Assembly: GCA_030695415.1 (NCBI GenBank)
Contig: JAUYQZ010000039.1
Span: 87,788 to 151,787 of the forward strand
Source of the DNA: Hylemonella sp.
Lineage (GTDB): Bacteria; Pseudomonadota; Gammaproteobacteria; Burkholderiales; Burkholderiaceae_C
Length of the DNA: 64,000 nucleotides
Reading direction: 5' to 3'
In this document: piece by piece, positions 499-56,639 of the stretch
How positions within the stretch are numbered: the first letter of the stretch is position 1
How the letters are laid out: each line of letters begins with the position of its first letter
Notes under the pieces: generated by a model
Told to the model about the DNA's origin: nothing
The model's database searches: none
Seen by the model: the letters and a program-made list of their open reading frames with translations, nothing else
Made by a program: the position numbers and the translations under genes

Positions 499-1536
499 TT
501 ATTTTTTGGTCAGCGCCGAGACAAAGGATGCGTCAAACGTGGCCTCGGTGGCCGGGATCTTGGTGATCTGTCCCTTGTCCTTGAGCAGCTTGGCGATCAC
601 ATCGCCACTGCCATAGTAGGAGGTGGTGGCGCTGGACTTGACGAAGGCCTTGGGCATTTCAGCCAGGGGAATGTTGTACACGCCGGTCAGTTGTTCCTTG
701 ACCTCCTTGGCGGGCACGCCCATGAACTTGCCGATGATCTTGGCCGCCTCGTCCGGCTTGGCCTTCATGTAGGCCATGCCGTCCAGATAGGCCTTGATGA
801 TGCCGCTGATCTCGTTGGGCTTGGTCTTGATGACTTTCTCGTCGAAAACCAGCACGTCGGCGATCAGGCCGGGCGCATCCTTGGAGGAGTACACCACCTT
901 GAACTTCTTGCCGTCACCCTGGCTCAGGATCTGCGACAGGCTGGGCTCGTAGGTCACGCCCACGGGCATCTGGCCGGAGGCCATGGCCGCCGGCACGGCT
1001 TCGGGCGTCATGCTCACGGGGCTGATGTCTTTCTCGGTCAGACCGGCCGTCTTCAGCGCGTAAGACAGCAGGAAGTCGGACGGCGACAGGGGGTTGTAAC
1101 CGACCTTCTTGCCCTTCAGGTCGGCGATCTTCGCCACCGACTTGTCCGCCACGATGGCGTCCCCGCCATTGGAGTAGTCGATGGGCATCACGACCTTCTG
1201 CATCTGACCGTTCGCGACCTGGCCGATGACCTGGTCGTAGGTAAGCATGGCGCCATCAAGCGCACCGCTGGCCACGGCCGGCGGGATGAGCGCGGGATCG
1301 CTGAAAACCTGCAGGCTGACCTTGAGGTTGTATTTCTTGTACAGATCGAGCGCGTCAGCCACATAGAAGGGCCCATAACCGATCCAGACCACGGTGCCGA
1401 TCTTCATCGACACCGGACCCGCCGCGAAGGCAAGTCCCGCGCTCAGCGCGAGCGTGGCGCCCAGCAGGGGTTTGAGGATGCGACCCAGCAGCCTGGTCGT
1501 GCCAGCGCCGGTCGTGTTGCGTGGAAGAGAGCCCAT
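499..1536 (-). CDS. ABC transporter substrate-binding protein (NMT1/SsuA-like), probable guanidine/urea-type uptake
   Basis: Signal peptide (MGSLPRNTTGAGTTRLLGRILKPLLGATLALSAGLAFA) then a NitT/TauT-type SBP body; the ORF-track start at 1827 is upstream of the riboswitch and is not used. Confidence 0.85.
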   Translation of the reverse strand: MGSLPRNTTGAGTTRLLGRILKPLLGATLALSAGLAFAAGPVSMKIGTVVWIGYGPFYVADALDLYKKYNLKVSLQVFSDPALIPPAVASGALDGAMLTYDQVIGQVANGQMQKVVMPIDYSNGGDAIVADKSVAKIADLKGKKVGYNPLSPSDFLLSYALKTAGLTEKDISPVSMTPEAVPAAMASGQMPVGVTYEPSLSQILSQGDGKKFKVVYSSKDAPGLIADVLVFDEKVIKTKPNEISGIIKAYLDGMAYMKAKPDEAAKIIGKFMGVPAKEVKEQLTGVYNIPLAEMPKAFVKSSATTSYYGSGDVIAKLLKDKGQITKIPATEATFDASFVSALTKK

Positions 1537-1587
1537 CGAATATCTCCTAAAGTGGATGAAAACGCAGGAAGAGTCGACACCGACATC

Positions 1588-1690
1588 TCTCTCCCGGGCT
1601 TTTGTCCCTCCGTGGAACCTCTTGCGAGGCCGGAGCACTCTCGGACCAGACATCAACCGCCCGCGACGGCTCGACCGGAACCCTAGTGCC
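1588..1690 (-). ncRNA. Guanidine-I riboswitch (ykkC class), copy 1
   Basis: Reverse complement carries CTAGGGTTCCGG ... TCTGGTCCGAGAG ... CACGGAGGGACAAAAGCCCGGGAGA, the conserved core of the class, about 50 nt upstream of the SBP start. Confidence 0.92.
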
Positions 1691-1755
1691 CCTGAGTCAA
1701 ATGCTTGCGACCTGTCTTCCGACCGGCCCAAACGCTCAACCTGCACCAGTTGGTT

Positions 1756-1771
1756 AGCAACATGCGTGCCA
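1756..1771 (-). promoter_or_regulatory. sigma54 (-24/-12) promoter upstream of riboswitch copy 1
   Basis: Reverse strand TGGCACGCATGTTGCT matches TGGCACR-N4-TTGCW exactly. Confidence 0.8.
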
Positions 1772-1881
1772 CGCCCTGGGCCCGTCTGCTTGGGGTACGG
1801 CAGGGGTCTTGCACCACCAACGCTCATTCTTGTTCCGTCTTATGGGCGGGCCGCCCACCTTGGTGCGTGAAGCCGTGCGTG

Positions 1882-4800
1882 TCAGCGCACCAGCACCAAG
1901 GGCTGCCCGGCAGTGACAGGCTGCCCTTCGGCGCAGAGAATCTCATGCACCTGCCCGTCGCCGCTGGCGTGCACGGTGATTTCCATCTTCATGGACTCGA
2001 CCACGATCAGGGCCTGGCCCGCCGTGACCTGGGCACCGGGTTGGACCAGCACCGCCCATACACCGCCCGAGACTTGGGACACGATGACCTCGCCATCAAA
2101 GGCCTCGGCGGCGGCGCGCGCGCTGTCATCCTGGCCTGTGACCTCATCGACGATCTCGGCTACGCCGGCCTGGCGCCAGCGTTCGCGCTCGGCCTCGAAG
2201 GCGGCTTGCTGGCCCTGCTTGAACTCGGCGATCGAGTCCGCGTTGTCGTGCAGGAAGCGGCGGTAATCCGACATCCGGAACACGCCGTCCTCGATGCGCA
2301 GCTGCGCGCGACCGGCGACAAAGTCGTGGCGCCATTGCAGCAGTTCTTCGCCGCTGACGGGGTAGAAGCGGATCTGATCGAAGAAGCGCAGCAACCAGGG
2401 CTTGCCGGCCTCGAACTCGCGCGTGACGCGCCAGCGGTTCCACATCTGTACGGTACGGCCGACGAACTGGTAGCCGCCGGGGCCTTCCATACCGTAGACA
2501 CAGAGGTAGGCGCCGCCGATGCCCACCGCGTTCTCGGGCGTCCAGGTGCGCGCCGGGTTGTACTTGGTGGTCACCAGGCGATGGCGCGGGTCCAGCGGCG
2601 TGGCCACCGGCGCGCCGAGGTAGACGTCACCCAGGCCCATCACCAGGTAGCTGGCCTTGTAGACGATGTCGTAGACCTGCTGGATGTCGTCCAGCCCGTT
2701 GATGCGGCGGATGAACTCGATGTTGCTCGGGCACCAGGGCGCATCGGCGCGTACCGACTGCATGTACTTCTCGATGGCCAGTTTCGTCGCCGGGTCGTCC
2801 CAGGACAGCGGCAGCCAGACCGTGCGGCTGGGCACCTCGATGTCGTCCAGCGCGGGTAGCGCGGCCTGTGCCTCCAGCAGGCGTTCCATCAGCGCCGGCA
2901 GGGAAATGATTTGCGGGTCGTAGTGCACCTGCAGCGAGCGGATGCCGGGTGTCAGGTCCACGATGCCGGGCAGCTGACCGCTGTGGCGCCAGGCCTGCAG
3001 CTGCGTCATCAGCGCATGGGCCTCGAAGCGCAGTTCCAGATCGAGCTTGAGTTCGCCGAACTCGATCAGCACGTTGTCGTCGCCCGATCGGCGGTAGACC
3101 ACGCCCACGCCGCCCGGTGCAGCCGGCGTGCGGTGCAGCACCGCAGCATTGGGCAGCGCCATCTGGCCGGCGATCGGTGCCAGCTGTCCGGGGTGCAGGA
3201 TGGCGTCCTGCGCGGCCGCCATCCCATTGGCCTCTTCCAGCGAGACCGGCACGAAGCGCACGCGGTGGCCCGGCGCGAGCTGGCCCACTTTCCACAGTTC
3301 GGCGCGCGCCACCGTGACCGGGCAGACAAAGCCACCGAGACTCGGGCCATCGGGACCCAGGATCACCGGCATGTCGCCGGTGAAGTCGATGGCGCCGATG
3401 GCGTAGGCGTTGTCGTGGATGTTGGAGGGGTGCAGGCCGGCCTCGCCGCCGTCGCTGCGCGCCCAGCCGGGCTTGGGGCCGATCAGGCGCACGCCGGTGC
3501 GGCTGGAGTTGTAGTGCACTTCCCAGCGGGTCGCGAAGAACACCTCCATGTCCTCGGGCGTGAAGAAGTCGGGCGCGGCATGCGGACCGATGAGCACCGC
3601 GATGTCCCATTCATGGCCGTAGGTGGGCTGAAGTTGCTGCACTTCGGCTGCGCTGAGCTGGCGCTGCACCGGCGCAGCACCGACGTGCAGCACGTCGCCG
3701 GCGCGCAGCGTGCGCCCGCCATGGCCGCCGAACTGGCCGAGCGTGAAGGTGGAGCCGCTGCCCAGGTAGGCCGGCACCTCGATGCCACCACCAAAGGCGA
3801 CATAGGCGCGGCAGCCGCCGGTCTGGATGCGCCCCAGGCGCAGGGTCTGGCCGGCCTTCACCGAGAGCACGGTCCACAGGGGCACGGGCGCGCCGTCCAG
3901 CGTGAGCTCGATCGGGGCGCCGGTCACGGCCAGCTGCAGGTCGCAGCGGAACGTCAGCGTGGGACCGGCCACGGTGATCTCCAGCCCCGGCGCGCCGACC
4001 GGGTTGCCCAGCAGCGCATTGGCCGCACGCAGGGCCAGCGGGTCCATGGGGCCCGAGGGCGGCACGCCCACATCCCAGTAGCCCAGGCGGCCGGGCCAGT
4101 CCTGCACCGTGGTCAGCACGCCGCCGGCCAGCACGTCGAAGGCGCGGCTGGGCGCGGTGAAGGTGGACAGGCTGCGCGTGGTGTGGCGGGCCTCGCTGAA
4201 AGGCGCGAAGCTCATCAGCGCGCGCAGGTAGTCGAGGTTGGACTCCAGGCCGGCGATGCGCGTGTCCTGCAAGGCCTTCGACAACTTGGCCAGCGCGTCG
4301 GCGCGGTCGGCACCAAACGCAATCAGCTTGGCCAGCATCGGGTCGTAATACGCGCCGATCTCGCTCCCGCGCTCGACCCAGGTGTCCACGCGCAGGTCGG
4401 TGGGAAACAGCACCTCGGTCAGCACGCCGGTGGAGGGCTGGAAATTCTTGTGCGGGTCTTCGGCATACAGGCGTGCCTGCACGGCATGGCCCCTGGCTTC
4501 GATCTTCAGCGTGGCGAAGTCCGGCATTTCATGGGCGCCGAGCAGGGTCATCCACTCGACGATGTCCACGCCGGTGACGGCTTCGGTCACGCCATGCTCC
4601 ACTTGCAGGCGGGCATTGACCTCGAGGAAGAAGAACTCCTGCGTGCGGGCGTCGACCACGAATTCCACCGTGCCGGCCGAACGGTAGGACGCCCTGGCGA
4701 CGAGTCTGCGTGCGGTGTCGTGCAGGGCCTGCCGAACTTCGGGGCGCAGGTTGGGCGCCGGTGTTTCCTCCACCACCTTCTGGTTGCGCCGCTGCAGCGA

Positions 4801-5484
4801 ACAGTCGCGCTCACCCAGGACCATGATGTTTCCCTGGCCGTCGCCGAAGATCTGCACCTCGACGTGGCGCGCGTCGGCGATATAGCGCTCCAGAAAGACA
4901 CCGGCCTCGGAGAAGTTGGCCTGCGCCAGACGACTCACCGTCTGGAAGGCCGCCGCCAGCTCTTCGGCCCGCTGGCACATCTGCATGCCGATGCCACCCC
5001 CCCCGGCACTGCTCTTGAGCATGACGGGGTAGCCGATGCGCGCGGCTTCCTTGAGCGCGGTCTCGGCATCAGGCAGCAGGCCGGTGCCAGGACACAGCGG
5101 CACACCCGCCTCGATGGCAAGCGCGCGCGCGGTGTGCTTGAGGCCGAACAGACGCATCTGGGGCGGGGTCGGTCCCAAGAAGACCAGGCCGGCGGCTTCG
5201 CAGGCTTCGACGAAGGCTGGATTCTCCGACAGGAAACCGTAACCGGGGTGCACGGCCTGGGCACCGGTCTTGCGCGCTGCATCGATGATGTGCGGCATGG
5301 ACAGGTAGCTGGTGGCCGGTGCCCCGCCACCGATGCAGATCGCCTCGTCGGCCAGGGCCACGTGCATGGAATCGGCGTCGGCCTCGGAATACACCGCCAC
5401 CGAGGCAATGCCCATGCGCTTGAGCGTGCGGATGATGCGGCAGGCGATGGCGCCGCGGTTGGCGATCAGGACTTTGGTGAACAT
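1882..5484 (-). CDS. Urea carboxylase-family biotin enzyme, likely guanidine carboxylase
   Basis: About 1200 aa: biotin carboxylase N-terminus (MFTKVLIANRGAIACRIIRTLKRMG), KipI/KipA-like middle, carboxyltransferase region, BCCP motif VVESMKMEITV. Guanidine assignment is by association with the riboswitch and DUF1989 pair. Confidence 0.9.
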   Translation of the reverse strand: MFTKVLIANRGAIACRIIRTLKRMGIASVAVYSEADADSMHVALADEAICIGGGAPATSYLSMPHIIDAARKTGAQAVHPGYGFLSENPAFVEACEAAGLVFLGPTPPQMRLFGLKHTARALAIEAGVPLCPGTGLLPDAETALKEAARIGYPVMLKSSAGGGGIGMQMCQRAEELAAAFQTVSRLAQANFSEAGVFLERYIADARHVEVQIFGDGQGNIMVLGERDCSLQRRNQKVVEETPAPNLRPEVRQALHDTARRLVARASYRSAGTVEFVVDARTQEFFFLEVNARLQVEHGVTEAVTGVDIVEWMTLLGAHEMPDFATLKIEARGHAVQARLYAEDPHKNFQPSTGVLTEVLFPTDLRVDTWVERGSEIGAYYDPMLAKLIAFGADRADALAKLSKALQDTRIAGLESNLDYLRALMSFAPFSEARHTTRSLSTFTAPSRAFDVLAGGVLTTVQDWPGRLGYWDVGVPPSGPMDPLALRAANALLGNPVGAPGLEITVAGPTLTFRCDLQLAVTGAPIELTLDGAPVPLWTVLSVKAGQTLRLGRIQTGGCRAYVAFGGGIEVPAYLGSGSTFTLGQFGGHGGRTLRAGDVLHVGAAPVQRQLSAAEVQQLQPTYGHEWDIAVLIGPHAAPDFFTPEDMEVFFATRWEVHYNSSRTGVRLIGPKPGWARSDGGEAGLHPSNIHDNAYAIGAIDFTGDMPVILGPDGPSLGGFVCPVTVARAELWKVGQLAPGHRVRFVPVSLEEANGMAAAQDAILHPGQLAPIAGQMALPNAAVLHRTPAAPGGVGVVYRRSGDDNVLIEFGELKLDLELRFEAHALMTQLQAWRHSGQLPGIVDLTPGIRSLQVHYDPQIISLPALMERLLEAQAALPALDDIEVPSRTVWLPLSWDDPATKLAIEKYMQSVRADAPWCPSNIEFIRRINGLDDIQQVYDIVYKASYLVMGLGDVYLGAPVATPLDPRHRLVTTKYNPARTWTPENAVGIGGAYLCVYGMEGPGGYQFVGRTVQMWNRWRVTREFEAGKPWLLRFFDQIRFYPVSGEELLQWRHDFVAGRAQLRIEDGVFRMSDYRRFLHDNADSIAEFKQGQQAAFEAERERWRQAGVAEIVDEVTGQDDSARAAAEAFDGEVIVSQVSGGVWAVLVQPGAQVTAGQALIVVESMKMEITVHASGDGQVHEILCAEGQPVTAGQPLVLVR

Positions 5485-5570
5485 GGCGATCTCTCTGTGC
5501 TCGTGCAGGTCGTCCTGCGCAGTCGTTGTCACCGCGCGGGCCGTCCCGCGGGCGTGTGGTGCCCGTTCGC

Positions 5571-6221
5571 TTAACTGGGATCCCAGACCAGGCAGCGTAC
5601 CGGCGTGGGGTTGTAGGCGTTGCAGGGGTTGTTGAGCTGCGGGCAGTTGGAGATCAGCACGATCAGGTCCATCTCGGCGCGCATCTCGACGTACTTGCCC
5701 GGGGCGGAGATGCCGTCTTCGAAAGTCAGGCCGCCTTCCGGGGTGACCGGCACGTTCATGAAGAAGTTGACATTGGCGACCACGTCGCGCTTATCCAGCG
5801 CATGGCCGTCGTGCGCGATGGCCAGCAGGTAGTTGTCACGGCAACTGTGCATGAAGCGCTTCTCCAACGCATAGCGCACGGTGTTGCTCTCGCTGGCGCA
5901 GGCGCCGCCCAGGGTGTCGTGGCGGCCGCAGGTGTCGGCCACGATGGTCAGCAGGGGCCGGCCTTCGCTGGACATGAGCTGCGAGCCCACGCCCAGGTAC
6001 AGCGCGCCCTGCGCCTGGATGGTGTGGGTGAGGCTGTAGCGCTCGGACGGGTCCGCCGCGCTGTAGAAGATGGTGTCGACGGCCTGATTGCCTTCCAGAT
6101 CGACCATGCGCAGGATCTGTCCGCGCTTGATCTCTTTCAGCCACGGCTCGCCCGCGGGCAGCACGTCGTCGAGCACGGCACGGGCCGGGTCCAGGCTACT
6201 TTCCAGGAGTTGTGCAGTCAT
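5571..6221 (-). CDS. DUF1989 urea carboxylase-associated protein (carboxyguanidine deiminase subunit type)
   Basis: [55 protein letters not shown]...; adjacent to carboxylase and to a paralogue. Confidence 0.88.
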
Positions 6222-6248
6222 GATGTTCTCGCTTGGGTGGGCTGGGGT

Positions 6249-7031
6249 TCAGAGGAAGTAGCGTTCGGTGTTGGCCAGTCCGCGCGCGTTCTCCGCACAG
6301 GACAGGCGGCAGACGTCGTCGGCCCCGGCGGTGCCGGAGCGCCAGGCGGTGAGCTTGACGGCGCGCGGGTTATAGGCGGGCGCCGGATCGAGCGGATGCG
6401 GTGCGGTGGAGAAGGCCACCAGCACGTTCATCTCGAAGCGCAGGTCGATGTACTGGCCCGGGGCACGGTGCGCGGTTTCGAAACGCAGCCGTCCCTCGGC
6501 ATCGGCCACTACCTTGCTGAACAGGTTGAGGTTGGCCACCATGTCACGCTTGCCCAGGCCCCACTTGCCCAGCTCCACCAGCAGGCCGTCCACCGCGTTG
6601 CGGTACATGCCGTTACGGTGTTCCTGGTAGCGGGCTTGGCCATACTTGCGGGCCAGCCCGGCGGCGTCGAGTGCGCCGCACAGGGTGTCGTGCCAGCCGC
6701 AGCTGTCTTCCGGGATCGAGCACAGCACGCGGCCCATGTCGGAGTAGCAGACGTGGCCGCGCGTCAGATAGGCCGTGTGCTGCGCCTTGAGCGTGTCGGG
6801 CATGTTGTAGCGCTCGGTCTTTTCTTCCTGGTTGTAGAGCAGCAGGGAGACGTTGGCGCCGCCGTGCAGGTCGGTAATGCGCAGGGTGTTGCCGCGACGC
6901 AGCAGGCCGGACCAGTGCACACCGCCGGGGATGAGCTCCTCCCACAGGACCGTGTCCCGAGAGAATTTTGCGGAGTGCGCAGGCAGGCTGGCGCGCGCCA
7001 GCGGGGTCAGGGCTTCGAGGGGGGTGTCCAT
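6249..7031 (-). CDS. DUF1989 urea carboxylase-associated protein (carboxyguanidine deiminase subunit type)
   Basis: LWEELIPGGVHWSGLLRRGNTLRITDLHGGANVSLLLYNQEEKTERYNMPDTLKAQ...; paralogue of the neighbouring gene. Confidence 0.88.
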   Translation of the reverse strand: MDTPLEALTPLARASLPAHSAKFSRDTVLWEELIPGGVHWSGLLRRGNTLRITDLHGGANVSLLLYNQEEKTERYNMPDTLKAQHTAYLTRGHVCYSDMGRVLCSIPEDSCGWHDTLCGALDAAGLARKYGQARYQEHRNGMYRNAVDGLLVELGKWGLGKRDMVANLNLFSKVVADAEGRLRFETAHRAPGQYIDLRFEMNVLVAFSTAPHPLDPAPAYNPRAVKLTAWRSGTAGADDVCRLSCAENARGLANTERYFL

Positions 7032-7044
7032 ACGGGTGTCCTGT

Positions 7045-7881
<837 letters not shown>

Positions 7882-43002: not shown

Positions 43003-44148
43003 TCAGAGCTGCTCGACGCGGTTGCGGCCGTTTTCCTTGGCCAGATAGAGCGCGCGGTCGGCCATGCCCACCATGCCGTCGCCCGTCTCCTCGTCGCTGC
43101 TGAGCATGGCATGCAAGCCGACACTGATGGTGAGCGGGATCGGCTGTCCGTCCAGCGCCGTGAAACGCTCCTGCCCCACCGCCGCGCGCAGCCCCTCGGC
43201 AAGGACGCGGCCGCCTGTCGCGTCCGTATTCGGCAGGATCACGATGAACTCCTCGCCACCCCAGCGACCCGCGATGTCCTGTGCACGCAGACGCTCGGTG
43301 ATGCAGGCGGCCAACTGCCGCAGAACCTTGTCACCGGACAGGTGGCCAAAGCTGTCGTTGACCCGCTTGAAATGGTCGATGTCCAGCATCAGCACGGACA
43401 GCGGCTGGCGCAGACGCGTGGCCTGAGCGATCTGCTGAGGCAAGGTCTGCTGGATGTAACGTCGGTTATGCAGTCGGGTCAGCTCATCGTGCAGGGCAAG
43501 GTCGCGGTTGAGCGCATCCGCGCGCTCCTTGCTCATGACGACCATGCCGAAGTTGGCCAGGGTCATCGTGATCGAAGCGAGCAGAAACGTGGCCGCCTGG
43601 ACCAGATTGGTGTCGGTGACATTCGTGATGTACGAGGTATGGATCAGAAGCGCGACACATCGCACCGCAATGATCAGCACGAATACCAGAAAGGCGACCA
43701 GCACCAGGTATTTGCCGCGCCCTGGCATCTGGGCCCAGCCGACGCGCAGCTGCAGGCACAACTGGCCGAGCTGGAACAGGATCAGAAGATTCCCGAGCAG
43801 GATGCGGACACGCGCGTCGTGCATGAAGACCAGAAATACCATCGCCCCCACAGCCACCGGCGCCCAGATGTAGAGGCGGTGGCGCACGGTCCTCTGGAAC
43901 TGCAACAGTCCCTCGATCATCAGGGAAAAACTCACAAACAGCAGCACGTTGCCGACCAGGATGGACAACCAGTCGCTGACCAGGCCACGCAGGCCGAACA
44001 GGAGATAGGCCAGGCTCTGCGCTGCCAGCGCACCCGCCCACAAGCGGAGCCCGTCGCGGCCCCCGCGCGGTGCCACCATGCCCAGGCAGATGGCCAGCGT
44101 CGCCATCACGGAGACATTGACGAACAGTAGCGTCGGCGTGTGCAACAT
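43003..44148 (-). CDS. Membrane diguanylate cyclase (GGDEF)
   Basis: Multi-TM N-terminus; RAQDIAGRWGGEEFIVILP (GGEEF with RxxD I-site). Confidence 0.93.
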   Translation of the reverse strand: MLHTPTLLFVNVSVMATLAICLGMVAPRGGRDGLRLWAGALAAQSLAYLLFGLRGLVSDWLSILVGNVLLFVSFSLMIEGLLQFQRTVRHRLYIWAPVAVGAMVFLVFMHDARVRILLGNLLILFQLGQLCLQLRVGWAQMPGRGKYLVLVAFLVFVLIIAVRCVALLIHTSYITNVTDTNLVQAATFLLASITMTLANFGMVVMSKERADALNRDLALHDELTRLHNRRYIQQTLPQQIAQATRLRQPLSVLMLDIDHFKRVNDSFGHLSGDKVLRQLAACITERLRAQDIAGRWGGEEFIVILPNTDATGGRVLAEGLRAAVGQERFTALDGQPIPLTISVGLHAMLSSDEETGDGMVGMADRALYLAKENGRNRVEQL

Positions 44149-44186
44149 GTGCCTTGATCTTAATGGCGGCACGCTGGCCGGAGGAA

Positions 44187-46892: not shown

Positions 46893-49637
46893 TCAGTTGA
46901 AGCTGGAACGGTCGGCCAGGTAGCGCTCGAAGTCCCCGGCGCTCATGGGCTTGCCAAAGTGGTAGCCCTGCAGCAGGCTGACGCCCTGCTGGGCAAGCAC
47001 CTGGGCAATGTCCTCGCTCTCCACACCCTCGGCCACGGTCTGCAGTCCAAAGGCCGAGGCGATCTTGACCACGGCCTGGATCAGCTGTCCGCCCTGTTCC
47101 GTCTGGGCGCGCCGCGTGAAGGAGATGTCGATCTTGATCTTCGAGGCCGGCATGTTGTGCAGCTGCGAGAGCGAGGAAAAGCCCGTGCCGAAGTCGTCGA
47201 TGGCAATGCCGAAGCCCGCCTCGGTCAGCTCGGCCAGGCGCTTCTCGGTGTGCTCGGCGTCCTCCATGGCCACGCTCTCGGTGATCTCCAGGTCCACCAC
47301 GGAAACCGGAATGGCCAGCCGGTCCAGGTCTTCCAGCAGATCGGCGGTAAAGGTCGGCGTGAAAAGCTGGCGACGCGAGACGTTGACCGAGATGCGCATG
47401 TCCAGGCCGCGCTCGCGCCAGCGGTGCAGGCTGTTGATGGACTCCTTCCAGACCTGCTGGCCCATCTCGCGAATCAGGCCCAGGTTCTCGGCCATGGGCA
47501 CGAAGGTGGCGGGGGACACCCAGCCATAGGTTTCGTCCTGCCAGCGCGCCAGCGCCTCGCAGCTCACCACGCGCCGGGTGCGCGCATCCACGATGGGCTG
47601 GAACCAGGCCTGGATCTTTCCTTCCCGGATGGCCGTGGCCAGCCGGTTCTGGATGTAAAGCGCCTTGCGGTCCTCCTCGCGCTGCGCGATCTCGGAGAAG
47701 AAGCGCACGGCGTTGCGTCCCTGCTGCTTGGCCGCGAACATGGCCCGGTCCGCCTGCGACAGCAGGGTCTCGACCGTCTTGGCGTCCGCAGGGAACAGGG
47801 CCACGCCCATGCTGAAGGTGGCGTTGAACTCCGTCTCACCAAGACGGATGGGCGTCTGGCAGACGGCAGCCAGCTTGCTGATGGCCTCCCCGGCGTCGGC
47901 CTGGCTGCCCAGGTCGGTCAGCAGCACCACGAACTCATCGCCACCCCAGCGCGCCAAGGTGTCGCCGGCGCGCAGGCAGTGGCGCATGGCGCCCGACAGG
48001 GCCACCAGCAGCTCGTCGCCGGTCTTGTGACCGAACTGGTCGTTGACGTGCTTGAAGTGGTCCAGGTCCAGGAAGCCCAGCGCCACGGTCAGGCCGCTGC
48101 GCTCAGCGCTGCGCAAGGCCATCTTGCAGCGGTCTTCCAGCAGCACGCGGTTGGGCAGGCCGGTCAGCGCATCGTGCAGCGCCATGTGGGTCACGTGCTT
48201 TTCCAGCTGGTAGCTCTGCGTGATGTCACGCAGCACGCCGCGTACGCTGCCGCCGCGGCGCGTGCCGCCAATGAAGCGGTACTCGACCCACAACTCCTTG
48301 GCGTCCGGGCGGCGCAGACGCAACCGTCCGCTCAGTCCGCTCTTCTCGCCGTCGACCAGCTGCTGGAACTGGTGTTCCAGGTTCTCGATGTCTTCCAGAT
48401 GGATGTGCTCGAAGATGCGCTCGCCGGGCAGGACATCGATGCCCGCCAGGCGCAGCCAGCCGGGGCTGGTACGCAGGTAGCGGCCGTCCGCAGCCAGTTC
48501 GACCACGCCCTCCTCCAGCATGTCCAGCGTCTGCAGATGGGCAAAGTGCTCCTCGTCGTGCTGCAGCACGCTTTGCATCAGCACGCGGCTGGCATCGGCC
48601 ATCGCGCCGATCTCGTCGGGTTCGGACCGCGCCTGCTCCAGCGCGTCCGCCACCGGGGCTGTCACTACGTGATCGCGAGCGAACAGGGTCGTGGCACGCG
48701 ACAGGCTCGCCACGCGCACCGTCAGGAAGCTGGCCCAGCGGCCCAGCACAAGCCACAGCACCAGCGCGAGCAAGCCCATGAGGAGGGCAACCACGCCCAG
48801 CACAACCCCTGCAGACAGCGATTCGCTCATCTGCTGCTGCATCACCAGGCGGGGCAGATCGCCGTCGCCCGCAAACACCGATGCCGTGCGTTGCTCGCGG
48901 CCACTTTGGCCCTGCTCCAGCGCACCGGAAAAACGGGCGTCCACCGCCAGCCCGATGTCAACGGACCCTTCGGAGCTCGACAGCACCCGTTCCTGGTGCA
49001 CGATCATCAGGCGCACCCCCGGCGGCGTCAGCTCGCGCAGCGAGCCATTGTCCAGCGGACGCATCAACACCAGCTGGCCCCCGCCCTGGCTGCCCAGCCA
49101 CAACGGCGTTGCAATCAGCCTGTAGGCCATGGGTGGCTGCTGGCTCAAAAACCACTGGGGCACGGCGCGCGCGCCATTCAGCTCCCCGGCCAACTCCTGC
49201 CCCTGCTGTCCGTAGCTGAACACCACGCGCGCCTGTGCGTCCAGCACCACGCCTGAAGGAAAGCGGCCTACCTTGCCCTCCATGGCCGAGAAGTAGGCGC
49301 GCAGGCGTGTCCAGGGCTGGGTTTCCTCTGCTGCAAAGATGCGCATGAAGTCCACATGGGCCTTCACTTCTTCGGCATTTTGCAGCCAGACAGACTGCCG
49401 TGTCTGGAGGTTTCGCTGGACATGGTCAAAGGTTGCGTCTGCCGTCTTTTGGTGCTGGTTCTGAACGAAGGTCTGATAGGCGCCCAGGGCCAGCAGGCCA
49501 GCCATCAGGCTGACAAAAGCAAAAACCACCACGAAGCGCCAGGTAATCTGGCGGCCCAGGCTGAGGCCTACGTGGGTCTGCACCTGACCCAGAGTGTCCA
49601 GCAATGAAGCGGGGGAGGACTCGGCTGGTACGGGCAT
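46893..49637 (-). CDS. Membrane sensor PAS-GGDEF-EAL protein
   Basis: Two TM helices flanking a periplasmic domain, then RAGDTLARWGGDEFVVLL (GGDEF plus I-site), SCEALARWQ, IDDFGTGFSSL, AEGVES. Confidence 0.95.
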   Translation of the reverse strand: MPVPAESSPASLLDTLGQVQTHVGLSLGRQITWRFVVVFAFVSLMAGLLALGAYQTFVQNQHQKTADATFDHVQRNLQTRQSVWLQNAEEVKAHVDFMRIFAAEETQPWTRLRAYFSAMEGKVGRFPSGVVLDAQARVVFSYGQQGQELAGELNGARAVPQWFLSQQPPMAYRLIATPLWLGSQGGGQLVLMRPLDNGSLRELTPPGVRLMIVHQERVLSSSEGSVDIGLAVDARFSGALEQGQSGREQRTASVFAGDGDLPRLVMQQQMSESLSAGVVLGVVALLMGLLALVLWLVLGRWASFLTVRVASLSRATTLFARDHVVTAPVADALEQARSEPDEIGAMADASRVLMQSVLQHDEEHFAHLQTLDMLEEGVVELAADGRYLRTSPGWLRLAGIDVLPGERIFEHIHLEDIENLEHQFQQLVDGEKSGLSGRLRLRRPDAKELWVEYRFIGGTRRGGSVRGVLRDITQSYQLEKHVTHMALHDALTGLPNRVLLEDRCKMALRSAERSGLTVALGFLDLDHFKHVNDQFGHKTGDELLVALSGAMRHCLRAGDTLARWGGDEFVVLLTDLGSQADAGEAISKLAAVCQTPIRLGETEFNATFSMGVALFPADAKTVETLLSQADRAMFAAKQQGRNAVRFFSEIAQREEDRKALYIQNRLATAIREGKIQAWFQPIVDARTRRVVSCEALARWQDETYGWVSPATFVPMAENLGLIREMGQQVWKESINSLHRWRERGLDMRISVNVSRRQLFTPTFTADLLEDLDRLAIPVSVVDLEITESVAMEDAEHTEKRLAELTEAGFGIAIDDFGTGFSSLSQLHNMPASKIKIDISFTRRAQTEQGGQLIQAVVKIASAFGLQTVAEGVESEDIAQVLAQQGVSLLQGYHFGKPMSAGDFERYLADRSSFN

Positions 49638-49656
49638 CGTTCGGGGTGCGGCGGGT

Positions 49657-50718
49657 TCAGGCGGCAGAGCCGACCCACCGGTCGTTGATGACAGCCCTGA
49701 TTTTAAAGGCCTGTGCTGCCGGCGTTTTTTCTACGGCATGCAAGAAGCGCTCGGCCGTGTTCAGCTGCTCCTCGGAAAAGCGTCCGTCGGGAGAAAAAAT
49801 GCCTTTGTGCCTGGTCAGCACCGCAGCCAGCGTATCACGCTCCACCGCATCCGGGATGGCCAGCGCACGCACCACTTCTGCGGCCGGCCGCTGCGCCATC
49901 CAGACCAGGGTGCGCACCAGCGTGCGGGCCACCATGTCCACCACCTCCGCTTGCTCGGCAATGACATCCTCGCGGGTGGTCAGGCAGCCATTGAGGAAGA
50001 GCCCGCCCAGCTGCTTGCGGGTTTGCTGCAGGTCGTGGTAGTCGGCCAGCGCAAAGGCCTGCCGCTCTGCCACCAGACGCATTGCAAAAGGTTCATCTCC
50101 CATGATGGCGTCCACCGCACCCGAAGACAGCGAGGCCTGCTGGCTCTGGTAGTCCTGCCCCACCGACACATAGTTGACCTGTGCGGCGGACACCCCGGCA
50201 CGCTCCAGCACATACTCGGTAAACAGCTGGGAGGTGGAACGCCCACCCGGCGAATAGCCTTTGACGCCCACCACCCTTCCGCGCAAATCGGCAACCGTGC
50301 GGACCGCCGTGCGCAGCGCGGGCCGCACCAGCAGGGTATAGGCAGGAACACGGGTCAGTGGCGCCATGCACACTACAGGCCGCCCGCTGATGCGCTGCAG
50401 GGCAGCCGCAGAAAGGCCGGCCGCCGCAAAGTCTGCATTGCGCTCAAGCATCTCGCGCATGGCCACCGGCCCGCCAGAAGTAAACCTCAGGTCCAGGTGC
50501 AGGCCCTGCGCCGCATCGGCACCGATGCGCGGGGCCAGCGCCAGGGGAAGATACAGCAAATTACCGGGGCCGGGCACCATAACGGTGACACGTCGCAGGC
50601 TGGCTGCCGGGGCTTGCGCCCGCAGCAGGCCCGGCCAAACGCTGGCGGCCAGCCCCAGCGCAAGCGCCTGCCCGGCACGGCCCACCATATACCGGCGTTG
50701 CATGTGGATGGAGCGCAT
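49657..50718 (-). CDS. Substrate-binding protein (NMT1/SsuA-like), no cognate permease/ATPase nearby
   Basis: RRVTVMVPGPGNLLYLPLALAPRIGADAAQGLHLDLRFTSGGPVAMREML; signal sequence; paralogue of next gene. Confidence 0.88.
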   Translation of the reverse strand: MRSIHMQRRYMVGRAGQALALGLAASVWPGLLRAQAPAASLRRVTVMVPGPGNLLYLPLALAPRIGADAAQGLHLDLRFTSGGPVAMREMLERNADFAAAGLSAAALQRISGRPVVCMAPLTRVPAYTLLVRPALRTAVRTVADLRGRVVGVKGYSPGGRSTSQLFTEYVLERAGVSAAQVNYVSVGQDYQSQQASLSSGAVDAIMGDEPFAMRLVAERQAFALADYHDLQQTRKQLGGLFLNGCLTTREDVIAEQAEVVDMVARTLVRTLVWMAQRPAAEVVRALAIPDAVERDTLAAVLTRHKGIFSPDGRFSEEQLNTAERFLHAVEKTPAAQAFKIRAVINDRWVGSAA

Positions 50719-50750
50719 CTACAGTTTTTCCTTTGTGCTTGCCTGTGGCT

Positions 50751-51803
50751 TCAGGCGCTGGTGCCGGCCCAGCGGGCATTCACCACACTCTGCAGGCGAA
50801 AGGCCTGGGCTGCAGGTGAGCTTTCGGTGGCATGGAAAAAACGCTCGGTCGTGGCGATTTGCTCAGCCGAAAAACGGCCGTCCGGGGAGAAAATGGCCTT
50901 GTGCTTTTGCAGCACCGCCAGCAGGCTCTGGCGCTCCTGCTCGTCGCGCAGCGCCAGGGCCGACACCACTTGCTCCGGGGAGTGACTGGCTATCCAGGTC
51001 AGGGTGCGTGTCAGGGCGCGCACCACACTTTCTACACGTTGCGGCTGCTGCGCCACCAGGTCATCGCGGGTGACCAGGCCATGATTGAGAAACAGGCCGC
51101 CAAGCAACTGCCGGGTTTGCTGCAGGTCATGATAGTCGGCCAGGGCAAAGGCCACCCTCTCCCGCAGCAGGCGCGTGGCCGAGGGCTCGTCGCCCATCAG
51201 CGCATCCACCGTGCCGGTGGCCAGTGCGGCCTGCTGGTTCTCATAGGATTGCCCCACTCCCACAAAATTCACGCGGCTCAGGGGCACGCGGTTCAGACCA
51301 AGCACATGCTCGGTAAACAGCTGAGACACGCCCCGCCCCCCCTGCACGAAGCCCCGAACGCCCACCACCAGGCCCTGCAGGTCGGAGATTTTGTTCACCC
51401 GCTGGCGCAGTTCCGAGCGCACCATCAAGGTGTAGCCCGGCACACGGGTAAAGGGAGCAATGCAGCTGAGCGCCTGTCCACTAATGCGCTGCAAGGCCAC
51501 GGCAGCAAGGCCGGCGCCGCCAAAATCGGCATTGCGCTCCAGCATGTCACGCATGGACTGCGGACCGCTGCTGACGTAACGCAAATCAAACTGCAGGCCT
51601 TCGGCTACATCTGCGCGGATCAGGGGCGCAAGGGTGAAGGGAAGAAAAACGATATTGCCAGGGCCAGGCACTGCAATCATCACCCGCTGGGTGGCGCCTG
51701 CCGGGGCCTGTGCCCGGCCGGGCAAGGTCGCAAGGCCGGAAGCCATGCCCAGCGCGAGGGCCTGACCAGCCCGGCTCAAAAAGTGTCTGCGACGAGGCAA
51801 CAT
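50751..51803 (-). CDS. Substrate-binding protein (NMT1/SsuA-like), tandem paralogue
   Basis: MLPRRRHFLSRAGQALALGMASGL... RVMIAVPGPGNIVFLPFTLAPLIRADVAEGLQFDLRYVSSGPQSMRDMLERNADF, highly similar to the downstream gene. Confidence 0.88.
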   Translation of the reverse strand: MLPRRRHFLSRAGQALALGMASGLATLPGRAQAPAGATQRVMIAVPGPGNIVFLPFTLAPLIRADVAEGLQFDLRYVSSGPQSMRDMLERNADFGGAGLAAVALQRISGQALSCIAPFTRVPGYTLMVRSELRQRVNKISDLQGLVVGVRGFVQGGRGVSQLFTEHVLGLNRVPLSRVNFVGVGQSYENQQAALATGTVDALMGDEPSATRLLRERVAFALADYHDLQQTRQLLGGLFLNHGLVTRDDLVAQQPQRVESVVRALTRTLTWIASHSPEQVVSALALRDEQERQSLLAVLQKHKAIFSPDGRFSAEQIATTERFFHATESSPAAQAFRLQSVVNARWAGTSA

Positions 51804-51948: not shown

Positions 51949-52521
51949 TCAGTTTCCGGCCCGCGCCAGGTGCTCGCTTTTCCAGCACACATCGTCGCCT
52001 GTAGCGCCATCGGTGCGATGCCGGTTGAGCACCCTGGCCAGCACGAACATCAGGTCGGACAGGCGGTTGAGGTACTGGCGCGGGGCGTCCTTGATGGCTT
52101 CCTCCTTGTCCAGAGCCACCACGGTGCGCTCGGCGCGCCGTGCCACGGTACGGCACACATGGGCCGGCGCCGCCTCCAGGCGCTGCAGCATGTGCCGCCA
52201 GTGGCCGGGCTCGACCGGGGTGATGGAGAGGCGGTTGCCCTTGTGCAGCACGCGCAGGCCGGCCAGCGCGGGATCGGCCCTCAGCTCGGGCAGGGTCAGC
52301 TTGCGCGTCTTGCGCAGGACCTGCACGTCCACGAGCAGCCAGCGGGGCGCCTCGGGCCGCGAGGCCACATCAAAGTACGGCGAGCCGGGGTCGAACTGGG
52401 TGGGATCGGGACGGGCTGCCGAAGCCACCCGGGCCAGGCCACGGTGGCGTGCGACGCGGCGAGCGCGTCGTCCACCGAGACCTCGTCCGGCTCGGATTTC
52501 ATGAGCCAGTACTGTGGCATC
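51949..52521 (-). pseudogene. Frameshifted EVE-domain gene fused to a duplicated 3' fragment of PduO-type adenosyltransferase
   Basis: Frame 1 from 52521: MPQYWLMKSEPDEVSVDDALAASHATVAW then out of frame; frame 2: VASAARPDPTQFDPGSPYFD...KGNRLSITPVEPGHWRHMLQRLEAAPAHVCRTVARRAERTVVALDKEEAIKDAPRQYLNRLSDLMFVLARVLNR..., whose tail copies the gene at 55968-56534. Confidence 0.8.
51974..52170 (-). repeat. Partial direct duplicate of the adenosyltransferase 3' end (other copy about 55996-56185)
   Basis: Long shared run, e.g. AGGCGGTTGAGGTACTGGCGCGGGGCGTCCTTGATGGCTTCCTC in both copies, with scattered substitutions. Confidence 0.85.
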
Positions 52522-55967: not shown

Positions 55968-56534
55968 TCAGTCGGCAGCCGCGCCCTTGAGCCGTTCGCT
56001 CTTCCAGTACACATCGTCCCCGCCATCCATGCGGTTGAGCACGCGCGCCAGCACGAACATCAGGTCGGAGAGGCGGTTGAGGTACTGGCGCGGGGCGTCC
56101 TTGATGGCTTCCTCATTGCCCAAGGCCACCACGGCGCGCTCGGCACGCCGTGCCACGGTGCGGCAGACGTGCGCCAGTGCTGCTGCGCGCGAGCCGGCCG
56201 GCAGGATGAACTCCTGCAACTTCGGCAGCTGTTCGTTGTGCTTCGCCAGCGCCTCGTCCAGGGCCAGCACGGCCTCGCCCTTGAGCAGTTCGAAGCCGGG
56301 GATGGACAACTCGCCGCCCAGGTTGAAGAGCTGGTGCTGGATCTCCACCAGCAGCGCCCGTACCTCGGCCGGCATCTCCTCGCACAGCAGCACGCCGATG
56401 TGGGAGTTGAGCTCGTCGACCTCGCCCATGGCGTGCACGCGCAAGCTGTTCTTGGAAACGCGCTGGTTGTCCCCCAGGCCGGTCGTGCCGCTGTCACCGG
56501 TGCGGGTGGCGATTTGTGTGAGGCGATTACCCAT
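55968..56534 (-). CDS. Cob(I)yrinic acid a,c-diamide adenosyltransferase (PduO type)
   Basis: MGNRLTQIATRTGDSGTTGLGDNQRVSKNSLRVHAMGEVDELNSHIG...YLNRLSDLMFVLARVLNR. Confidence 0.95.
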   Translation of the reverse strand: MGNRLTQIATRTGDSGTTGLGDNQRVSKNSLRVHAMGEVDELNSHIGVLLCEEMPAEVRALLVEIQHQLFNLGGELSIPGFELLKGEAVLALDEALAKHNEQLPKLQEFILPAGSRAAALAHVCRTVARRAERAVVALGNEEAIKDAPRQYLNRLSDLMFVLARVLNRMDGGDDVYWKSERLKGAAAD

Positions 56535-56639
56535 GAAGGTCACCTTGGATGAAAATGGAGGTTTCGCTGCGCTCCGGGCCGTCCGGGGGCAGAATCACTC
56601 CATTATTCCCCAGCCCCGCTGCGCAGCCCGGAGACCACC

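Follow-up and report, generated by a model that had tools for sequence, protein, structure and literature searches.

To our knowledge, few couplings of periplasmic binding proteins (SBPs) to c-di-GMP are known. In the NspS-MbaA system, nspS lies immediately upstream of mbaA, and norspermidine-bound NspS has been proposed to bind MbaA and to shift it from phosphodiesterase towards cyclase activity (PMC8079147); NspS itself is a homologue of PotD (PMC9993111). In Vibrio parahaemolyticus, the dual-function GGDEF-EAL enzyme ScrC is switched by ScrB, a periplasmic protein that binds signal S (PMC10269520), and in Salmonella both the arginine-binding protein ArtI and the periplasmic sensor domain of STM1987 are required for a c-di-GMP response (PMC8846402). 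Along with these, AgtS and AruS of Pseudomonas aeruginosa have been described as SBP-activated sensor kinases with neighbouring SBP genes (PMC11113362). According to a 2022 review, SBP_bac_3 was the only member of the periplasmic-binding-protein clan studied in c-di-GMP networks (PMC8846402). SBP-coupled c-di-GMP receptors are already known (NspS-MbaA, ScrB-ScrC and ArtI-STM1987); what is new here is the SBP type, an unnamed domain proposed to serve for docking, the exchanged outputs and the repeated duplications of the SBP.

The locus described here lies in a stretch of 64,000 nucleotides, the whole of which is referred to as the window. As in NspS-MbaA (Vibrio cholerae and Sinorhizobium meliloti), where the SBP gene is immediately upstream of, or overlaps, the gene of a TM-periplasmic-TM-GGDEF-EAL receptor (PMC8079147, PMC9993111), an SBP gene was found directly upstream of that of a two-TM periplasmic receptor with plausible GGDEF and EAL domains, and by our proposal the SBP would likewise report its ligand to a c-di-GMP enzyme. 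The systems differ in that NspS senses polyamines, whereas the SBPs here are NMT1/SsuA-like and sometimes duplicated, a distinction already drawn in the first-pass annotation and in agreement with the published relationship of NspS to PotD (PMC9993111); unlike in NspS-MbaA, the input domain here is also fused to kinases. ScrABC shares the combination of a periplasmic binding protein and a GGDEF-EAL enzyme (PMC10269520), but includes a signal-making enzyme, ScrA, and none was seen at the locus. The pairing of a binding protein with a periplasmic sensor domain for a c-di-GMP response, as proposed here, is also that of STM1987-ArtI (PMC8846402); the domain there is the named dCache_1, whereas the one here has no reliable Pfam match. 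AgtS and AruS, although different receptors, parallel the kinase members of the present family, including locus L039, in having an SBP gene near the sensor kinase gene (PMC11113362).

Architecture of the locus

Table 1. Features of the SBP-receptor locus, with positions in the window
Feature	Positions	Strand	Description	Evidence
SBP1	50751-51803	-	NMT1/SsuA-like periplasmic binding protein, upstream copy of tandem pair	ORF, Pfam NMT1
SBP2	49657-50718	-	NMT1/SsuA-like periplasmic binding protein, receptor-proximal copy	ORF, Pfam NMT1, subfamily profile
Receptor, 914 aa	46893-49637	-	TM - unnamed periplasmic domain - TM - linker - PAS - GGDEF - EAL	ORF, Pfam, hydropathy
Receptor TM helix 1	49479-49535	-	residues 35-53	hydropathy
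Receptor periplasmic domain	48807-49478	-	residues 54-277, unnamed, family-defining	conserved across family
Receptor TM helix 2	48750-48806	-	residues 278-296	hydropathy
Receptor PAS	48216-48512	-	residues 376-474	Pfam, sub-threshold score
Receptor GGDEF domain	47712-48182	-	intact motif (GGDEF) and inhibitory site (RxxD)	Pfam
Receptor EAL domain	46947-47648	-	catalytic motifs present	Pfam

The first-pass annotation had described three same-strand genes with gaps of 32 bp (SBP1 to SBP2) and 19 bp (SBP2 to receptor), tandem paralogous NMT1/SsuA-like SBPs, no adjoining ABC permease or ATPase, and a receptor of the order TM-periplasmic-TM-PAS-GGDEF-EAL with intact GGDEF, RxxD and EAL; ORF coordinates, profile matches, motifs and hydropathy agree with this description, the PAS match being sub-threshold (Table 1). 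SBP1 and SBP2 are 59% identical and score 38.5 and 48.6 bits with Pfam NMT1 (NMT1/THI5), above its curated cut-off. With NCBIfam TIGR01728 (SsuA, the aliphatic sulfonate SBP), they reach 53.6 and 44.6 bits, below the cut-off of 163.5, and 'SsuA-like' therefore denotes the fold, not the ligand. Among the Pfam and NCBIfam models listed for the two proteins, which include NMT1/THI5 and, under their cut-off, SsuA models, none is of the PotD type, and membership of the NspS family of PotD-like polyamine SBPs was rejected on this ground. Both SBPs carry a twin-arginine-like (Tat-like) N-terminal export signal (RRHFL in SBP1, RRYMV in SBP2), a motif present in 17 of 50 receptor-paired SBPs, and no lipobox was detected. 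The closest solved SBP structure, 3qsl, is a 'putative exported protein' and gives no hint of the ligand.

Approximately 224 residues separate the two hydrophobic segments of the receptor in the hydropathy profile, and the linker after TM2 is HAMP-like by position only. The GGDEF and EAL domains were matched with Pfam E-values of 7e-47 and 3e-65, respectively; the RxxD site reads RAGD and stands five residues ahead of GGDEF, and none of the EAL motifs EALARW, NVSRRQL, EITES, DDFGTG, KIDISF and AEGVE is missing. Among solved structures, the best relative of the GGDEF-EAL part is 4rnh ('motility regulator'). Judged by their motifs, both domains are catalytically plausible, and the receptor may both make and break c-di-GMP. 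The periplasmic domain had a reliable Pfam match (Cache, CHASE, LapD/MoxY and others) in none of 12 family members, the NCBIfam LapD model matched the GGDEF-EAL part of the receptor only and not this domain, and the periplasmic profile found nothing among PDB sequences at E<=10. Structure predictions from 2- and 3-row alignments had mean pLDDT values of 55 and 39, too low to lend support to docking; Foldseek with the pLDDT-55 model gave no match below E 0.001, and the non-significant top rows obtained with this low-confidence model, which include several Cache-type ligand-binding domains, are a lead only.

We consider it highly probable that the locus encodes a binding-protein-dependent one-component c-di-GMP receptor, with the SBPs as its dedicated co-receptors and not as parts of a transporter. 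After export, SBP1 and SBP2 would bind small solutes in the periplasm; an SBP, probably ligand-loaded, would dock on the periplasmic domain of the receptor, and the change on docking would pass through TM2 and PAS to the GGDEF-EAL pair, shifting its balance between making and breaking c-di-GMP. It is from the anatomy of the receptor and the analogy with NspS-MbaA that we infer docking, and with it physical contact and signal transfer.

Within the genus, synteny is largely kept over the block DGC - acetoacetyl-CoA synthetase - receptor - SBP - EVE - upp - uraA; in the window, a membrane diguanylate cyclase is encoded two genes downstream of the receptor (43003-44172, minus strand), and its synteny with the module extends across much of the genus. 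The genes upp and uraA are close to the SBP throughout the genus but not in L055, and a nucleobase ligand is thus only a weak lead. No thiamine or c-di-GMP riboswitch, which could hint at the ligand or at regulation, was found, and a promoter scan gave nothing. Upstream of SBP1, the ORF at 51949-52428 (minus strand) is a chimera that joins the C-terminal half of an EVE domain, in the same reading frame, to a duplicate of the C-terminal end of a PduO-type cobalamin adenosyltransferase; the gene of this adenosyltransferase is located 3.5 kb away (55968-56543, minus strand). The chimera may stem from recombination or from a fault in the assembly.

Linkage of SBP and receptor, and alternative roles of the SBPs

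Receptors were counted for linkage if they had been found with the periplasmic profile alone, without use of the SBP, and as full-length matches (n=47); loci L039-L053 and L055 were left out, since they had been reached through the SBP and are hence biased. An SBP of the subfamily was located immediately upstream on the same strand in 36 of the 47, with 15/17 among strong receptors of the order and class surveys and 21/30 in the family and phylum surveys, figures that call for caution, since SBP-linked receptors went into the profile and could be favoured by it at the high-scoring end. The gene order, whose confinement to this strain had been named beforehand as grounds for rejecting the proposal, was kept as SBP-receptor in nine genomes of the same genus and far beyond.

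Two of the 11 receptors without an adjoining SBP are at contig ends; L059 and L067 are among the strong first-survey matches, and the rest are nearly all low-scoring. The periplasmic domain can thus exist without a neighbouring SBP, and, as most of the SBP-less receptors are the lowest-scoring ones, there is an SBP-less branch (L096, L101, L102, L105-L107 and L109), which may sense directly or with another partner. Among 50 SBP-receptor pairs, the longest ORFs overlap in 34, usually by 4 to 34 bp (approximate values, with starts set mechanically), and are more than 70 bp apart in only three, so that translational coupling is likely. Distances between SBPs and between receptors were correlated (r = 0.78; permuted maximum 0.15), a value from which contact and shared descent cannot be told apart. 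Broken- or truncated-looking SBP genes beside full-length receptors (L062 in G637, L053 in G023 and L047 in G006) may mark an input in decay or mistakes in the assemblies.

Of 399 genomes of the order, 16 have a strong receptor, and exactly those 16 also have the SBP subfamily; subfamily members score at least 251 bits and all other matches at most 163, the interval between being empty. In G514, the SBP (L078) and the receptor (L067) are on different contigs, both branch as sister to the clade of the window in their respective trees, and no ABC gene was found beside the SBP. The strong SBP of G672 (L077) is not encoded next to the receptor, beside which a shorter and weaker SBP-like ORF is found.

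Proteins of the NMT1/SsuA type are usually transport SBPs, and those of the locus might serve a distant ABC permease and ATPase, the receptor gene being a mere neighbour or co-regulated with uptake; with 16 NMT1 places in the genome, unlinked permeases exist and could in principle be shared. However, none of the 36 profile-found receptor-linked SBPs is adjoined by a gene for an ABC permease or ATPase, and the few ATPase matches are at least 2.6 kb off. Among 16 generic NMT1 SBPs of relatives, by contrast, 11 lie within 1.5 kb of an ABC ATPase. The confinement of the subfamily, within the order, to receptor-bearing genomes also speaks against such a role, which we regard as very improbable. An ABC importer of the SsuABC/ThiXYZ type was rejected as well, as neither a permease nor an ATPase gene was found beside the locus or its homologues. 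The ATPase of the window (7045-7881) belongs to a separate operon with its own NMT1 SBP (499-1827); this minus-strand region (499-7881), which also encodes a urea-carboxylase-like biotin enzyme and two DUF1989 proteins, is an ordinary transport-linked contrast.

Some SBPs have two roles, as does maltose-binding protein, which delivers to its transporter and reports to Tar. A similar combination, with ligand delivery to a transporter elsewhere and a report to the receptor, would be compatible with the observed linkage, but the subfamily is sharply split from other SBPs by the scores given above and tracks the receptor, and we assign the dual role a very low probability. Also very improbable is direct sensing by the periplasmic domain with the SBPs as ligand buffers or scavengers that make no contact: the SBP-less branch and the Cache-type domains, often direct ligand binders, among the non-significant structural matches would suit it, but the high-scoring branch is near-universally SBP-linked, mostly with overlapping ORFs, and the SBP travels with the receptor regardless of the output domain. 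The lack of adjacent ABC genes and the genome-by-genome co-occurrence with the receptor support the initial suggestion that the SBPs are sensors and not transport components.

Exchanged outputs and tandem SBPs

The locus is one member of a family that is apparently undescribed so far: no report of it turned up in open-access searches on NMT1 in combination with GGDEF/EAL or histidine kinases, most subscription journals being outside their scope. Behind the homologous periplasmic domain, the outputs found were GGDEF-EAL, GGDEF, histidine kinase (some with GAF) and hybrid kinase. It takes six changes to map the three output classes onto a tree of 34 receptors, which indicates that the output part was swapped while the input stayed conserved. 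The constant part across outputs is the SBP with the periplasmic domain, as contact between them would predict. The designation as a c-di-GMP module, made at first, would apply to the GGDEF-EAL receptor of this locus but is not universal, since the same domain is also fused to histidine kinases. The SBP-receptor arrangement is more than chance, as it is found again in other genera and families and in a second class of the same phylum. A single-protein receptor scan of contigs gave one locus, L055, again with an SBP followed by GGDEF-EAL, and the plasmid collection searched gave no matches.

Some kinase receptors are followed by a REC-GGDEF gene (L066, L073, L075 and L048, the last with an overlapping ORF call), while those of the other class are mostly without it. 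L073 (G332:C202, 107-11523) contains two complete SBP-hybrid kinase modules in tandem with a REC-GGDEF gene between them. The host genome's second tandem-SBP module, L039 (G000:C7:17000-31000, 3469-7831), has a PAS-histidine kinase with the homologous periplasmic domain.

The conserved unit is one SBP and a receptor, and the pair is a lineage-specific duplication. Most loci, and most genomes of the genus, have a single SBP; of the SBP-SBP-GGDEF/EAL order that the first-pass annotation had suggested surveying, the succession of SBP and receptor is conserved and the SBP pair is not. Pairs were found in the window, in G018, in G006 (with a truncated upstream copy), in the second module on C7 (L039, with a kinase) and in G1211 (L092); they occupy four separate spots in the tree and originated in about four lineages. 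At 157 positions invariant in single-copy-type relatives, SBP1 differs at 31, SBP2 at 21 and the receptor-proximal SBP of G018 at 36, changes that would fit a divergence of the copies in ligand range. The two SBPs may read two ligands, as the first-pass annotation had suggested, or a single one. In a different genus of the family, the SBP next to a kinase receptor (L108) groups weakly with SBP1 (83/58), and the SBP1-SBP2 split may therefore predate the genus. More speculatively, and in our judgement unlikely, two diverged SBPs might compete for one docking face with different or opposite effects, so that c-di-GMP would be set by the sensed ratio of two ligands, within a family built on an interchangeable input cassette (SBP and unnamed periplasmic domain) plugged into cyclases, cyclase-phosphodiesterases and kinases.

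The family adds an SBP type, together with a periplasmic, proposed docking, domain unnamed in the libraries searched. It provides natural experiments, in that homologous receptors come with one SBP or with a tandem pair and one input serves several outputs, and thereby a clean system for the study of SBP-receptor communication and of whether tandem SBPs widen or oppose inputs.
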